64,000 bases of DNA from Pedobacter sp. FW305-3-2-15-E-R2A2 (GCF_038446955.1 NZ_CP151803.1:6510001-6574000), one strand, 5' to 3'; positions 9,525 through 15,780 are shown, numbered from the stretch's first letter. Program-made: numbers and translations. Notes: generated by a model from the letters alone, not told the origin.

Positions 9525-9557
9525 ATTGAATTTGCAATACACTATTGCAAGTTCAAT
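9525..9557. promoter_or_regulatory. 33-bp near-perfect palindrome before the XrtN operon
   Basis: Two 15-bp arms (ATTGAATTTGCAATA and its complement) with one mismatch flank CAC at 9540-9542. It is followed by TTTT, so it may act as a weak, AT-rich terminator of the DUF47 gene, or it may be a second operator 37 bp upstream of the one at 9569-9587. The inner part, TTGCAATA-CAC-TATTGCAA, is also 19 bp long. Confidence 0.5.
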
Positions 9558-9568
9558 TTTTAATACTT

Positions 9569-9587
9569 TACTTTGCAACACAAAGTA
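9569..9587. promoter_or_regulatory. operator candidate TACTTTG-N5-CAAAGTA, copy 1
   Basis: A perfect 7-bp inverted repeat with a 5-bp spacer (CAACA), ending 5 bp before the ATG at 9593. The same arms and spacing recur at 10528-10546 in front of creD. The left arm resembles a -7 box, so a bound repressor would block the promoter. The winged-helix protein encoded between the two sites is the obvious candidate. Confidence 0.7.
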
Positions 9588-9592
9588 CTTTT

Positions 9593-10213
9593 ATGGAAGA
9601 GAAAGAAATTTATACCGAACTCAATTCTATCAGGAACCTGATGGAACGTTCTGCCAAATTCATATCCTTAAGCGGATTGTCAGGAATTATGGCTGGAGTT
9701 TATGCACTGATCGGTGCAGGTTATGCTTACTATCTTGTGTATGGTCCCTATGGTGGTCTTCAATACAGAGACTATTATATCAGTGACCAACAGGTACTTT
9801 GGAAATTATTTTTTATTGCCCTGATCGTATTGATCCTTTCCTTAGGAACAGGAATTTTACTGACGCTAAGAAAAGCAGCGAAGAAAAATCAGAATGTATG
9901 GAACCCAAGTAGCAGAAAACTGATGATCAATATGGCTATTCCTTTATTTACAGGGGGGTTGTTTATCCTGATTTTAATCGCAAGAGGCCATTATGCCGTT
10001 GTTGCTCCTGCAAGCTTAATATTTTATGGCCTGGCCCTTGTTGCCGCAAGTCATTATACTTTTGAAGATGTAAAATGGCTGGGTATTCTGGAAATTATTC
10101 TTGGTTTATTTGCGACTTTACTTCCTGGGTATGGCCTTATTTTCTGGTCCGTAGGTTTCGGAGTACTACACATCATTTACGGTTCTATCATGCATTTTAA
10201 ATACGACAGGTGA
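9593..10213 (+). CDS. six-helix inner membrane protein, first gene of the XrtN operon
   Basis: A 206-residue integral membrane protein with no domain I can name. A short charged N-terminus (MEEKEIYTELNSIRNLMERS) is followed by about six hydrophobic segments, for example GIMAGVYALIGAGYAYYLV and FFIALIVLILSLGTGILL. The ATG at 9593 is preferred over a TTG at 9545 because the longer version would be read through the operator repeats. Its stop overlaps the GTG start of the winged-helix regulator (GTGA), so the two are probably translationally coupled. By context it may be the signal-sensing partner of that regulator; this is inference. Confidence 0.85.
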   Translation: MEEKEIYTELNSIRNLMERSAKFISLSGLSGIMAGVYALIGAGYAYYLVYGPYGGLQYRDYYISDQQVLWKLFFIALIVLILSLGTGILLTLRKAAKKNQNVWNPSSRKLMINMAIPLFTGGLFILILIARGHYAVVAPASLIFYGLALVAASHYTFEDVKWLGILEIILGLFATLLPGYGLIFWSVGFGVLHIIYGSIMHFKYDR

Positions 10214-10512
10214 GATCAGCATTAGAACATTTCGATAAAGCCTTTGAGAACAGGATACGCCTGCAGGTCATGAGCATCCTGGTGGCCAATGAGAATTACG
10301 ACTTTAATTCCCTGAAGGAATTACTGGAGGTAACTGATGGTAACCTGGCCTCTCACCTGAAGGCACTGGAGAAAGAAGAATATATCATTATCTATAAATC
10401 CTTTCTGGGCAGAAAACCCAATACCAGTTATGCAGCCTCTGAAAAAGGGAGAGCCGCATTTCTGAAACACCTGCAATCCCTTGAAAATTTAATTAAACAA
10501 CAAAAACGTTAA
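10210..10512 (+). CDS. winged-helix transcriptional regulator (MarR/ArsR-like, single domain)
   Basis: A 100-residue DNA-binding protein made almost only of one winged helix. The recognition region is DFNSLKELLEVTDGNLASHLKALEKEEYI, and the wing is KSFLGRKPNTSYAASEKGR. Translation starts at GTG 10210, overlapping the previous stop by 4 bp. It lies between two copies of TACTTTG-N5-CAAAGTA, one before the upstream membrane gene and one before creD, so I infer that it regulates both halves of the cluster and itself. Proteins of this type often accompany creD in Bacteroidota. Confidence 0.9.
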   Translation: MRSALEHFDKAFENRIRLQVMSILVANENYDFNSLKELLEVTDGNLASHLKALEKEEYIIIYKSFLGRKPNTSYAASEKGRAAFLKHLQSLENLIKQQKR

Positions 10513-10527
10513 TTTTTTTTATTCAAC

Positions 10528-10546
10528 TACTTTGAAATACAAAGTA
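10528..10546. promoter_or_regulatory. operator candidate TACTTTG-N5-CAAAGTA, copy 2
   Basis: Same 7-bp arms as at 9569-9587 with spacer AAATA, 18 bp before the creD ATG at 10565. Both copies are followed by CTTTTA. A TTG inside this repeat (10532) is therefore not the creD start. Confidence 0.7.
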
Positions 10547-10564
10547 CTTTTAAAAATCAAAATC

Positions 10565-11932
10565 ATGGAACCATTTCAATTGCCCCCACAAAAATCAGTC
10601 TTCACTCAACTACAGGAATCTGTTGGTGCCAAGCTCTTCTTAATTGGCATGCTTACCGTATTGCTACTCCTTCCCTCCTCCTGGATTCAATCGCTGATTA
10701 CGGAACGTGAACAACGTCAGAATGAAGCGATCACAGAAATTGCAGAAAAATGGTCCGGTAAGCAATTGATCGAAAGCCCTGTGATGCAGCTACCTTACAA
10801 AACCTTCGTCAAAGTGACAGATGCAGCTGGCAAAACGAGCTTAAAAGACGGTCTCTCCGTAGTATATATCCTACCTGAAGACCTGAGCATTCAAAGCCAG
10901 GTAAGCCCTGAAATTTTACATCGTGGTATTTTTGATGCTGTCGTATACAATACCAAACTGAAAATTCAAGGCCGCTTCAGCGAACTGGAATTAAAAAAGT
11001 CAGGCATTAACCCAGAGCTGATCTTATGGGATAAGGTTAAAGTGATTGCCGGATTAAGTGATCTAAAAGGGTTAAAAAATAACCCAATCATAAAACTTGA
11101 GGACCTGGCCTATACCGCAGAACCTGATTTCTCCCCGGAACACCTGTTCAACAATAGTCTCGCGGTACAGGCCAACCTTAGTGCTGGTAAAAGCACGGCA
11201 ATTCGCTTTAACTACGATATTGACCTCCGCGGAAGCGGAGAATTAGATTTCCTCCATCTGGGAAAAAACACTTCTGTGAGCGTCACAGGAAATTGGAGCA
11301 ATCCGAGCTTTACCGGCAACTACCTACCCGAGACCAGATCAATCACGGATAAACAATTTAGCAGCAACTGGAAAATGTCCAATTTCAACCGGCCTTTTCC
11401 GCAGCAATGGCTGGGCAGCAATGATGCGCTAAACGAACAAAATAAAGCTAAAGCGACCTTCGGTGTCAAATTCCTCCTTCCTGTGGATCAATATCAGAAG
11501 ACCACACGCTCAGCAAAATATTCCGTGCTGATCATTTTATTGAGCTTTATCTCTCTTTTCTTCATTGAACTGCTCAACAAAATAAAGGTCAATCTGCTTC
11601 AGTACGTGTTAATTGGCGCGGCAATGATCATCTACTATAGCCTGTTGCTGTCTTTCACGGAACAGATTGGCTTTGCACTCGCTTACTTAATTGCTTCCAT
11701 AGCTACCATTACCCTGGTGAGCGTCTTTATCGGAACATTTTTGAGAAACAAGAAAGCGGCATTTGTGTTTGCCATTATCCTGAGCATATTTTATAGTTTC
11801 ATTTATGTGATCATTCAATTGCAGGACATGGCCCTCCTTTTTGGAAGTATCGGTTTATTTATCACCGTCGCCTGTCTGATGTATTTCTCCGTTAAAATCA
11901 ACTGGAATAAAAATCAACCTGCAATTGCTTAA
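10565..11932 (+). CDS. creD: cell envelope integrity protein CreD
   Basis: An inner membrane protein of the CreD family, linked to envelope integrity and, in Gammaproteobacteria, to the CreBC response. 455 residues from the ATG at 10565. One N-terminal membrane segment (LIGMLTVLLLLPSSWIQSLI) leads into a large periplasmic domain starting ITEREQRQNEAITEIAEKW, the typical CreD sequence. The C-terminal third holds about five hydrophobic segments (FFIELLNKIKVN to the end). Only 3 bp separate its stop from the VIT gene, so it belongs to the XrtN operon. No CreBC genes are nearby. Confidence 0.93.
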   Translation: MEPFQLPPQKSVFTQLQESVGAKLFLIGMLTVLLLLPSSWIQSLITEREQRQNEAITEIAEKWSGKQLIESPVMQLPYKTFVKVTDAAGKTSLKDGLSVVYILPEDLSIQSQVSPEILHRGIFDAVVYNTKLKIQGRFSELELKKSGINPELILWDKVKVIAGLSDLKGLKNNPIIKLEDLAYTAEPDFSPEHLFNNSLAVQANLSAGKSTAIRFNYDIDLRGSGELDFLHLGKNTSVSVTGNWSNPSFTGNYLPETRSITDKQFSSNWKMSNFNRPFPQQWLGSNDALNEQNKAKATFGVKFLLPVDQYQKTTRSAKYSVLIILLSFISLFFIELLNKIKVNLLQYVLIGAAMIIYYSLLLSFTEQIGFALAYLIASIATITLVSVFIGTFLRNKKAAFVFAIILSIFYSFIYVIIQLQDMALLFGSIGLFITVACLMYFSVKINWNKNQPAIA

Positions 11933-11935
11933 ATC

Positions 11936-14452
11936 ATGAAAAGCATAAAATCCATTCTTTTAGAAGACAAATTCCGCCTGAGCGGAATTGTCTCTATTCT
12001 TATTTCAACAGCGGTATTTGTGATTTCAGGTTTTCTCAGAGAAGACACGGCATTTTTTCTTTTTATCCTTTGCTACGGATTTTCGGCCATCTTTGCGCTG
12101 CTGTTTTTATACAAAATCGCTTTCTTGTACAAAAGAAAAGCGGGTCAGGCTAAAATTGAATATACGGCCCTTGTACTTGTCCTTTGGTTCATCAGTGCAT
12201 TCTCTCTGAACAGAGTCATGAATATTTTTAACAGTTCCGGCACCTGGCTCTCTGTATACATTTGTATCGCATGCCTGGCCATGGTATTGAGCACAATACA
12301 AGAGGCATTCGGTCTGTTCGCTAAACATATACTGACATTCCTATTGGCCGCATCAAGCCTGCTGTTCATCTATTATGCCATTTATCTGATTCCATTTTAT
12401 GCACTTAGTGCCTTGGCAGCTATATTTTTAGGCTTATCTATTCATTCTTTTATTCCACTCTTTCTGGCCATCATTTCCATTTCGTTTCTGGTGATTTTTG
12501 TTAAAAAAATCCCTGTGCTAAAATATTCCATTGCTGCCGGTTTTACGATTCCGGTACTTATTGCCGCCTGGTTTACCTTTGAGTGGAGTCAGCTGAATAA
12601 AAGTGTCCGTTTATCTCAAAATCACAATTCATTAAATGAAAGCCCGCTTCCTGAATGGGCAGTCATTGCAGCTCAACTCCCAAAATCACTAATTACGGAA
12701 AAATACCTGAAAGCCGACCTGGTATATACCACTCCAAATGAAAACAGAAATTGGTTTTGGGGAGATGTCAGATCTTCCTTTGCAGAACCTAAAAAGCATG
12801 ATCCTCTGATTGTATTCGCCAGTTTGTGGTCGGGTAAACCTAATCTGAGTGACGAAAACCGGATTAAGATCCTCAAATCCATTTATGATTCCAGACACCT
12901 TGCTGAGGAAAGACTTTGGTCTGGTGATGACCTGGAAACGCAAAGTGTAACCAGCAATATCAAAGTGTATCCCGAATACCGCATGGCATACACAGAAAAA
13001 ACATTAAGCATTCGCAACAATAGCCAAAGGCCATGGAGCATGAACCAGGAGGCTATTTATACCTTTCACCTCCCTGAAGGGTCGGTCATCAGTTCACTTT
13101 CTTTATGGATCAACGGGATAGAGGAAAAGGCACGCCTGACGACAAAAGGGAAAGCAGATTCTGCTTACAAAACGATTGTCGGAGTCGAATCCCGCGATCC
13201 TTCTGTGGTTCACTGGCAGGAAGGCAATACAGTAAGTGTTCGCGTCTTTCCATGCACCAGCGAAGAAAACAGGAAATTTAAGATCGGCATCAGCAGTCCC
13301 CTGAAAAAAGAGAACAATCAACTCATCTATGAAAACACCTGGTTTGATGGCCCTACGGCAAAAAATGCGGAAGAAAGCGTTCAGCTTGATTTTTCGGTCT
13401 CTCCAAAGGAACTCCACACGGACTTCAACCTTCAGAAAAACGGAAAATACACTTCAGACCGCCAGTACAAAGACAAATGGACATTAAGTCTTGGTAAAAC
13501 CGAGTTATCTGCTCAGCTCTTTTCATTTGGAGGCAACAGTTATCAGCTGAAAGACGCGAGGGCTATCCCTACACCATTCAAACCAACAGTCATTTATCTG
13601 GACCTCAATCGTTCCTGGTCTGAACAAGAACTGAAAAAACTCTGGCTAAAAATAAGTCAGCAAAACGTATATGTTTTTAAGGGAAAACTGATCAAAGTAA
13701 CTACTGAGAATTTAAGTTCGGTTTACAACGATTTTAGTGAACTGAACTTTAGCCTGTTTCCGTTCTATGAAATCTCAGATCCCGAAAACGCGCTGGTCAT
13801 TAGCAAAAGTAGTGGAAATGAACCTAACCTTAGAGATCTGGAAAATAGTAGATTCCAGAAAAAGACCAGTACTTTCTTTGCTAAAGCCAGACCATTTCAC
13901 TTATATCAGCTAGGCGGACAAAGCAGTCCTTACCTAAAAACATTAAAGGAATTTGGTCTCTTCCACTATAATGAAGGAGATCTAGACCTACTCATTAGCC
14001 AATTGCAGACCAATCAATTTAAAACCTTCGAAGCGCAGGAAAATTCCCTGATGATTCCCAATGCAACGATGAAAGTAGAAAAGATAAAAGGCAGTGTAAA
14101 TACGAATGCTCCGGATCATTTACTTCGTTTGTTTGCCTACAATGACATTCTTAAAAAAGTAGGGGCTACCTATTTTGAGAAAGATTATGTTCGGCCTGAG
14201 CTGCTGGCCACAGCCGATCAGGCCTTCATTGTTTCTCCGGTGTCCAGTATGATCATTTTAGAAAGCCAGAAGGACTATGATCGTTTTGGAATAGAAGAGA
14301 GCAAGAACAGCCTGAAAAATGCCTCTATTCAATCTTCGGGTGCCGCTCCGGAACCACATGAATGGATGCTCATCATGCTGTGTGCAACTGTGATGATTTA
14401 TTTCAGTTATCAGTCCGGACATTTTAACAGATTGAGCCAATTATGGAAATAG
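11936..14452 (+). CDS. XrtN-system VIT-domain protein with C-terminal exosortase sorting signal
   Basis: The probable dedicated substrate of exosortase N. 838 residues: about seven transmembrane segments in residues 15-215, then a VIT (inter-alpha-trypsin inhibitor-like) domain near 340-470 (YTEKTLSIRNNSQRPWSMNQ; YTFHLPEGSVISS), then a large extracytoplasmic region. At the C-terminus PEPHEW (about residue 805) is followed by a hydrophobic stretch and a short tail with R and K, a PEP-CTERM-like sorting signal. The last 10 bp overlap the start of the exosortase gene, as expected of a matched pair. The biological role of the sorted protein is unknown. Confidence 0.92.
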   Translation: MKSIKSILLEDKFRLSGIVSILISTAVFVISGFLREDTAFFLFILCYGFSAIFALLFLYKIAFLYKRKAGQAKIEYTALVLVLWFISAFSLNRVMNIFNSSGTWLSVYICIACLAMVLSTIQEAFGLFAKHILTFLLAASSLLFIYYAIYLIPFYALSALAAIFLGLSIHSFIPLFLAIISISFLVIFVKKIPVLKYSIAAGFTIPVLIAAWFTFEWSQLNKSVRLSQNHNSLNESPLPEWAVIAAQLPKSLITEKYLKADLVYTTPNENRNWFWGDVRSSFAEPKKHDPLIVFASLWSGKPNLSDENRIKILKSIYDSRHLAEERLWSGDDLETQSVTSNIKVYPEYRMAYTEKTLSIRNNSQRPWSMNQEAIYTFHLPEGSVISSLSLWINGIEEKARLTTKGKADSAYKTIVGVESRDPSVVHWQEGNTVSVRVFPCTSEENRKFKIGISSPLKKENNQLIYENTWFDGPTAKNAEESVQLDFSVSPKELHTDFNLQKNGKYTSDRQYKDKWTLSLGKTELSAQLFSFGGNSYQLKDARAIPTPFKPTVIYLDLNRSWSEQELKKLWLKISQQNVYVFKGKLIKVTTENLSSVYNDFSELNFSLFPFYEISDPENALVISKSSGNEPNLRDLENSRFQKKTSTFFAKARPFHLYQLGGQSSPYLKTLKEFGLFHYNEGDLDLLISQLQTNQFKTFEAQENSLMIPNATMKVEKIKGSVNTNAPDHLLRLFAYNDILKKVGATYFEKDYVRPELLATADQAFIVSPVSSMIILESQKDYDRFGIEESKNSLKNASIQSSGAAPEPHEWMLIMLCATVMIYFSYQSGHFNRLSQLWK

Positions 14453-15780
14453 CAGGATTGAGAAAGCCATTGACGCTTCTTTTGCCGGTCATAATGTGTC
14501 TCTGTTATACATTGATCTCTTTTAGGTTGCTTTCGGGATACCTGATCTGGGACATCACCGTATACATCGGAATAGCCATTATTCCTTATGTATGCCGCAT
14601 AGAAAGTGGAAGCAGGTCATTGCGCTTTCTTATTCCTGCCTTGCTTTTCATTTTGCTTGCCGTTTTTATTCCGGCAAAATCAACCCTGTTTTTTACACTG
14701 GTATTTACGATATTGTTGCTATTTGAAAATTTCATGGGGAAGATTAGCCTGAACTTTTTTTTCGTCCTGGTACTGCTGTCCCCACTTTTTAAATTCTTTA
14801 GCGACACGCTCAGCTTCCCCCTTCGGTTATGGTTAAGCAATACAGTTGCTCAAACCATAACCCTGGCAGGAATACATGCCAAGGCGACTGGAAACATCAT
14901 TACCATTGATGGTTACGATTTTTACATTGATCAGGCCTGCGCCGGATTAAACATGCTCAGTATCTCTTTGCTGATCTGCCTCTTTATCCTCAGTTACCAC
15001 CAGAGGAAGAACGAAGGATCTCTTCCTTTTTATAGCCTGCTGGCGATGCTGATCCTGACATTCCTGCTGAATATTATTTCCAACTTTTTCAGGATCATGA
15101 TGATTGTCATTTTCAAGATTATGCCTGGAACAACAATGCATGACCTCGTTGGGATGTGTACACTGATCGTTTACGTCATTTTACCCTTGATAGCACTAAG
15201 TGGCTCTTTTGTGAAACGATTTGGTAAAATAAACCCGAAAATGGAAGATCAATCAAAAGCAACAGCACATTTTTTAAAGTACCCGCTCTTACACTTTATG
15301 TTCTTTGGTGTTATCATTTTTATCTCCATCCATTCATCTGAAAATGTGCCTGCAGCGCACAAAAACAGCAAGTACATTGCATTAAAAGGATATCAGAAAA
15401 CTTTTCTTCAAAACAATGTATTAAAGTTTGAGAACAAAGAAGCATTGATCTATATGAAGCCAACTTCCTTTTACGCCCCGGAACACAATCCCATGATCTG
15501 TTGGACTGGGAGTGGTTATGAGTTTCAATTGATAAAAAAAGAAATGATCAACGGAACCGAAATTTATACGGGCACTCTGGTTAAGGGCAAGGATAAGATC
15601 TATGCCTCCTGGTGGTTTGACAATGGAAAAATGAAAACCATTGACCAGTTCCAATGGAGGTGGAATGCGGCCAGGGAAAATCAGGATTTTTACCTTGTTA
15701 ACGTCAATGCCACCAAAAGCGAGGATCTTAAAAGAATTACTGAAACACTTTTACCATCGCCATTCGCCGGCAATCCTTAA
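14443..15780 (+). CDS. xrtN: exosortase N
   Basis: An integral membrane transpeptidase-like protein that cleaves the PEP-type C-terminal signal of its substrate. 445 residues with eight or more membrane segments. The exosortase catalytic triad is present: Cys166 (DQACAGLN), Arg217 (NFFRI) and His233 (TMHDLVG). The C-terminal third after residue 280 is a soluble EpsI-like domain (PTSFYAPEHNPMICW; YASWWFDNG). Its ATG overlaps the VIT gene, and its last 30 bp overlap the convergent M28 peptidase gene. Exosortase N with a single VIT-domain target is a known Bacteroidota pair; assignment is by motif and context. Confidence 0.93.
   Translation: MEIAGLRKPLTLLLPVIMCLCYTLISFRLLSGYLIWDITVYIGIAIIPYVCRIESGSRSLRFLIPALLFILLAVFIPAKSTLFFTLVFTILLLFENFMGKISLNFFFVLVLLSPLFKFFSDTLSFPLRLWLSNTVAQTITLAGIHAKATGNIITIDGYDFYIDQACAGLNMLSISLLICLFILSYHQRKNEGSLPFYSLLAMLILTFLLNIISNFFRIMMIVIFKIMPGTTMHDLVGMCTLIVYVILPLIALSGSFVKRFGKINPKMEDQSKATAHFLKYPLLHFMFFGVIIFISIHSSENVPAAHKNSKYIALKGYQKTFLQNNVLKFENKEALIYMKPTSFYAPEHNPMICWTGSGYEFQLIKKEMINGTEIYTGTLVKGKDKIYASWWFDNGKMKTIDQFQWRWNAARENQDFYLVNVNATKSEDLKRITETLLPSPFAGNP

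Follow-up and report, generated by a model that had tools for sequence, protein, structure and literature searches.

We analysed a 64,000-nucleotide stretch of DNA (the window) that covers positions 6,510,001-6,574,000 of the single-contig, 7.6-Mb genome of Pedobacter sp. FW305-3-2-15-E-R2A2, focusing on five closely spaced plus-strand genes that end with a VIT-domain protein gene and the exosortase N gene xrtN. By identity of the VIT protein, the closest named relatives are Pedobacter sp. KBW06 (92%) and P. steynii (88%). The first gene (9593-10213) encodes a 206-amino-acid membrane protein of about six helices, here called TM1, which lies outside named families, with zero matches in the NCBIfam and Pfam libraries. 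It is co-encoded, with a 4-bp overlap, with a 100-amino-acid winged-helix regulator of the HTH_34 family (10210-10512, GTG start), which scores 96 bits against PF13601 (cut-off 27), carries no sensor domain, and was the sole strong HTH_34 protein in a search of the genome; its solved relative is PH1061 (PDB 1ub9, E 9e-13). After a 52-bp gap follows creD (10565-11932), present once in this genome, whose inner-membrane product scores 441 bits against NF008712 (NCBIfam) and 487 bits against PF06123 (Pfam, cut-off 23). The XrtN-system VIT gene (11936-14452; 1013.5 bits against TIGR04477, cut-off 250) begins 3 bp downstream and encodes about eight transmembrane helices, an ectodomain with VIT and vWA-like parts, and a C-terminal PEPHEW sorting helix. 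It overlaps by 10 bp with xrtN (14443-15780), whose product has a conserved C-terminal domain and scores 413.7 bits over model positions 5-406 of TIGR04476 (curated cut-off 200 bits); its Cys166, Arg217 and His233 are invariant in all 83 aligned XrtN proteins. The reading frames, their spacing and the active-site residues are all as the original prediction, made from this sequence alone, had described them, and the families lie far above their cut-offs. We consider it highly probable that the VIT–xrtN pair forms part of a Bacteroidota-wide regulon of the HTH_34 protein, with a palindromic operator, putative auto-repression, TM1 as candidate sensor, and envelope targets that include exosortase pairs.

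Comparison of 85 VIT loci, the window and 84 from other genomes, showed xrtN after the VIT gene in 83, which bears out the earlier view of the two proteins as a dedicated pair. TM1 and the regulator lie nearby in 33 of the 85 loci and creD in nine. Besides the window, four Pedobacter loci (L067-L070) show the exact five-gene order, and P. steynii and P. caeni are among the species that have it. In four Chitinophagaceae-type loci (L094, L110, L114 and L139) the arrangement is lengthened by additional genes, which in L139 include DUF1361 and diacylglycerol kinase genes. The idea that the five genes form a conserved unit is therefore given up, as the first three are mostly not linked to xrtN in other genomes. 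A search of viral contigs for the VIT protein returned zero matches.

What recurs across these loci is a palindrome with the consensus ACTTTG-N5-CAAAGT, usually carrying an nCTTT extension. In the window, TACTTTGnAAnACAAAGTAC is present in two exact copies (9569-9588 and 10528-10547), against a chance expectation of 0.11 matches even when up to three mismatches are allowed. The operator proposed earlier in the 52-bp gap is real: ACTTTGAAATACAAAGTACTTT (10529-10550, plus strand) is an exact match between the regulator gene and creD, and the same post-regulator slot is occupied in 31 loci. A second copy had been missed, namely ACTTTGCAACACAAAGTACTTT (9570-9591, plus strand), also exact, which lies over the -7 box of TM1 and holds the same place in 31 of the 33 loci with a linked regulator. 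The probable TM1 promoter (9545-9575, plus strand) consists of a TTG at -33 (9545-9547) and the -7 box TTACTTTG (9568-9575). Among 27 distinct TM1 promoters the TTG is kept 24-26 bp ahead of CTTTG, and the palindrome's left half serves as the -7 box; at VIT promoters with a single operator the palindrome likewise covers the -7 box.

The palindrome is conserved in trans. It precedes the VIT gene or its operon in 71 of the 85 loci, or in 73 if two cases in which it drives an upstream gene are included, and is still found at VIT in 39 of the 52 loci without a nearby regulator. Within 1.68 Mb of sequence around the 85 VIT loci we counted 124 palindromes, 116 of which stand at TM1, behind the regulator, or at VIT. 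Among 48 tested genomes with an unlinked VIT gene, 42 carry TM1 elsewhere; in three genomes of one family (G174, G245 and G324, family f4), VIT–xrtN lies beside aconitase genes with a palindrome just before VIT, and TM1 and the regulator, accompanied by two further palindromes, are found on a different contig. When degenerate copies and upstream genes are counted, an operator serves VIT in 75 of 78 genomes with TM1 and in two of seven without it (exact motif at VIT against TM1 presence, Fisher p = 4e-4; the genomes are related, so this p value and the one given below denote association and overstate the number of independent events). Five of the seven VIT promoters in genomes without TM1 lack the palindrome, among them that of G109, which has VIT–xrtN, neither TM1 nor a strong regulator, and zero palindromes. 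We no longer regard the 13 unlinked, palindrome-less loci as plain exceptions, since 11 of them are accounted for: three have operators with one or two mismatches (L117, L118 and L119), two have operators before an upstream gene (L107 and L120), one begins near a contig end (L091), and five belong to genomes without TM1 (L096, L123, L124, L133 and L040), which leaves L087 and L142. The operator kept at distant VIT promoters thus argues for a functional tie between the regulator and VIT–xrtN, as had been suspected from the single locus.

A survey of 395 Bacteroidota genomes for the exact 22-base operator, with the reversed pattern as control, extended this association. TM1 is present in 118 genomes, one copy each, and in the loci examined it directly adjoins the regulator, while other targets vary. 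The exact operator is present in 102 genomes, at only about one to four sites per genome and at nearly none where the regulator is absent; the control pattern gave a handful of matches. Both TM1 and the exact operator occur in 93 genomes, TM1 only in 25, the operator only in nine, and neither in 268 (p about 1e-55, again as association). All 25 TM1 genomes without an exact site have copies with one or two mismatches, and a regulator homologue exists in each of the nine genomes that have the operator but lack TM1, in several of them next to the operator. These data bear on whether the locus is an ordinary operon, grouped by chance in some Pedobacter, with a palindrome that is merely a motif common to promoters of the phylum and has no relation to the regulator. 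The restriction of the five-gene order to Pedobacter and a few Chitinophagaceae variants would fit that explanation, as would the resemblance of the left palindrome half to the Bacteroidota -7 box, TAnnTTTG. However, the right half-site and its CTTT extension are conserved as strongly as the left half, and the scarcity of exact sites, their near absence without the regulator and the almost empty control do not suit a general motif. Genome-wide co-occurrence of operator and regulator had already made an ordinary operon unlikely, and we regard it as highly improbable. In the genome of the window, a one-mismatch search with the general palindrome returned mostly noise, with control counts equal or higher, so only exact sites were used there; the third such site, at position 1,435,747, lies at a second DUF4153-like family accompanied by a membrane protein of 109-124 amino acids. 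In family f24 (L284-L307), the operator mostly has A for C in the right half-site (ACTTTGN5AAAAGTACTTT), a variant that may reflect a co-evolved change in the regulator.

Genes behind operators, whether they follow the regulator or lie elsewhere in the genome, mostly encode membrane or envelope proteins. They comprise CreD, DUF4153, the second DUF4153-like family with its 109-124-amino-acid partner, DUF1361 with diacylglycerol kinase, a membrane protein family of 96-190 amino acids, a YiiX peptidase with a Coq4-like protein, a DoxX-like protein, and DUF2809. The tie to CreD that had been proposed holds in this form, creD being a recurrent member of the same regulon though rarely linked to xrtN. 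A second exosortase is also represented. In G289 (L315), genes for exosortase K and its MSEP-CTERM partner directly follow the regulator and operator, an arrangement which indicates that a second exosortase–VIT pair is able to fill the same slot, and in G166 (L313/L316) MSEP-CTERM has an exact operator. Separately, in one genome (G292, L250), a gene of the serine beta-lactamase family stands behind an exact operator.

The position of the operator suggests the direction of control. As the palindrome lies over the TM1 -7 box, a bound dimer should block polymerase, and auto-repression is the simplest reading. Post-regulator operators carry an A/T tract in place of a -33 box. This tract lies about 9 bp upstream of the operator (window 10493-10528, and in the same slot in other loci) and is either A2T8R or A7T3R, the two forms being interchangeable. 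It could be taken to mean that the palindrome is indeed an operator but that the regulator activates, with the conserved A2T8 or A7T3 tract replacing the -33 box at post-regulator sites. We consider activation unlikely, because both TM1 promoters and VIT promoters with one operator have their -7 box under the palindrome, a position from which a bound protein would keep polymerase out. In double-operator leaders of unlinked loci, a terminator-like hairpin followed by a T-run lies between the operators in 12 of 14 cases, compared with 0.9 in shuffled sequences (L071, L077, L090, L104, L105, L108, L109, L113, L115, L120, L121 and L127, all before VIT); this element may be a leader RNA or an attenuator.

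In the mechanism that we propose, the small, PH1061-related HTH_34 regulator would bind ACTTTG-N5-CAAAGT, usually with its nCTTT extension, and repress both its targets and its own TM1-regulator promoter. TM1, a candidate sensor of the state of the inner membrane, would relieve this repression. Relief would switch on a set of mostly inner-membrane envelope proteins, such as CreD, the DUF4153 types, DUF1361 with diacylglycerol kinase, and YiiX, together with a dedicated exosortase and its single VIT–vWA client where these are present, that is, XrtN–VIT or, in one genome, XrtK–MSEP-CTERM. The role given to TM1 rests on gene order because a PDB fold search with TM1, whose AlphaFold2 model has a predicted local distance difference test (pLDDT) score of 81, found no relative. 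TM1 could instead be one more effector of the regulon, with the regulator itself binding a small molecule as the true signal; nine operator genomes carry the regulator without TM1, and PH1061-like proteins are stand-alone winged helices. We lean somewhat against this alternative, which is nevertheless a serious one, as the single-copy occurrence of TM1 in 118 of 395 genomes and its place directly beside the regulator in the loci examined, where other targets vary, are better matched by a sensor.

Besides the relatedness of the genomes, several observations weigh against the proposed regulon. TM1 is evidently not strictly needed, given the nine genomes that have the operator without it, and a -33 box is missing at post-regulator operators. 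Two VIT loci in TM1 genomes have no operator (L087 and L142). Two others have an operator in genomes where TM1 was not found (L116 and L137); both genomes are metagenome-assembled, and TM1 may be absent from the assembly only. For the XrtK–MSEP-CTERM pair, an operator is present in only two of three TM1 genomes; the pair lacks one in G163, which has TM1, and in G137, which does not. Finally, the case as a whole is built on sequence comparison. On balance, we regard a regulon around the known pair as real and well supported, and the direction of control and the signal as matters of inference.

In its AlphaFold2 model (pLDDT 84), the VIT protein has about eight N-terminal membrane helices and an ectodomain that matches the VIT–vWA region in heavy chain 1 of inter-alpha-inhibitor (6fpy and 6fpz, E 1e-14). 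At the C-terminus of the VIT protein PEPHEW is followed by a helix (807-826) and a basic tail, and the motif reads PEP-x-EW in all 85 VIT proteins. XrtN would probably cut the client before this C-terminal helix. If the N-terminal helices hold the protein as modelled, such a cut would not free it for the surface, so that surface sorting seems doubtful and maturation in place, within the membrane, more likely than release. A search of the genome for PEPHE found one in-frame C-terminus of this kind, that of the VIT protein, which agrees with the earlier claim of a single client as far as this motif is concerned; clients with other motifs would lie outside the search. A second match to the pattern was rejected as a client, being in another frame of an aminotransferase-like gene.

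These features also bear on the model first put forward for the locus, a five-gene, single-client sorting operon triggered by envelope stress. The sole in-frame PEPHE C-terminus is compatible with it, and in Stenotrophomonas the envelope is compromised when CreD is lost, which sets off the sigma-E response (PMC4689548). We nevertheless hold this model to be rather doubtful, as the five-gene linkage is rare, with creD at nine of the 85 loci, and the prediction of a polytopic membrane protein as client sits poorly with surface sorting. More tentatively, and at somewhat less than even chances, one membrane-coupled regulator may govern a hitherto unrecognised inner-membrane envelope response throughout the Bacteroidota, in which XrtN, or XrtK in other lineages, processes one VIT–vWA membrane protein in place. 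If so, exosortases would have a use other than surface sorting, and either exosortase pair could stand in for the other as a module of one response.

Exosortase N and the XrtN-system VIT protein are already a known pair (TIGR04476 and TIGR04477), and the proteins described here are the same ones, far above cut-offs; we found no description of their regulation, whereas the present analysis assigns them to a regulon whose operator is defined. Exosortase K and MSEP-CTERM (TIGR04287 and TIGR04286) are likewise organised as a single exosortase with one large client that contains a VIT domain. The two systems differ in exosortase family and sorting motif, and the clients are related over part of their length: the VIT protein of the window reaches 67.6 bits with the MSEP-CTERM model, short of that model's cut-off. 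The HTH_34 and ArsR/MarR-like stand-alone regulators such as PH1061 (1ub9) are of the same family and length as the regulator at this locus, which differs in its partnership with TM1 and in a conserved 17-22 bp operator common to unlinked envelope genes. The PadR-DUF1700 type pairs of Firmicutes also co-encode a small winged helix with a membrane protein; their membrane partner and operator are unrelated, and the likeness is an analogy only. In the CreBC-CreD system of Proteobacteria, creD is likewise under regulation and encodes an inner-membrane protein with a tie to envelope integrity (PMC4689548), but control here would be exerted by a winged-helix regulator and a membrane partner rather than a two-component system, and the genes that surround creD in the window include neither CreB nor CreC. 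In Flavobacterium johnsoniae, the exosortase-family gene xrtF is required for colonisation (PMC10936215); it belongs to a different system from XrtN–VIT.

Our literature search, which left most subscription literature outside its reach, found no published description of the operator, the regulator or the regulon, and their novelty is accordingly provisional. To our knowledge, neither a purpose nor a trigger is known for single-client exosortases. The regulon offers a first way into the question of when the XrtN–VIT pair is used, and for what reason, and makes its purpose testable. Several families whose function is unknown, namely the DUF4153 types, DUF1361, TM1 and small transmembrane families, are also brought together in one response, with an operator that is searchable in any Bacteroidota genome.

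Some further observations concern xrtN itself. The C-terminal 165 amino acids of XrtN resemble EpsI by eye; Pfam gave no match and NCBIfam matched exosortases N and O only, and we do not claim the assignment. The 2-3-Mb genomes of family f18 (L013-L037) contain many weak exosortase-N-like open reading frames, a few with in-frame stops, as well as stand-alone frames of about 200 amino acids whose matches are confined to the XrtN C-terminal domain. It looks as though two proteins encoded separately in these genomes had been joined to give XrtN. At its 3' end, xrtN overlaps a convergent M28 peptidase gene tail to tail by 30 bp (window 15751-15780), a neighbourhood shared with four Pedobacter loci.

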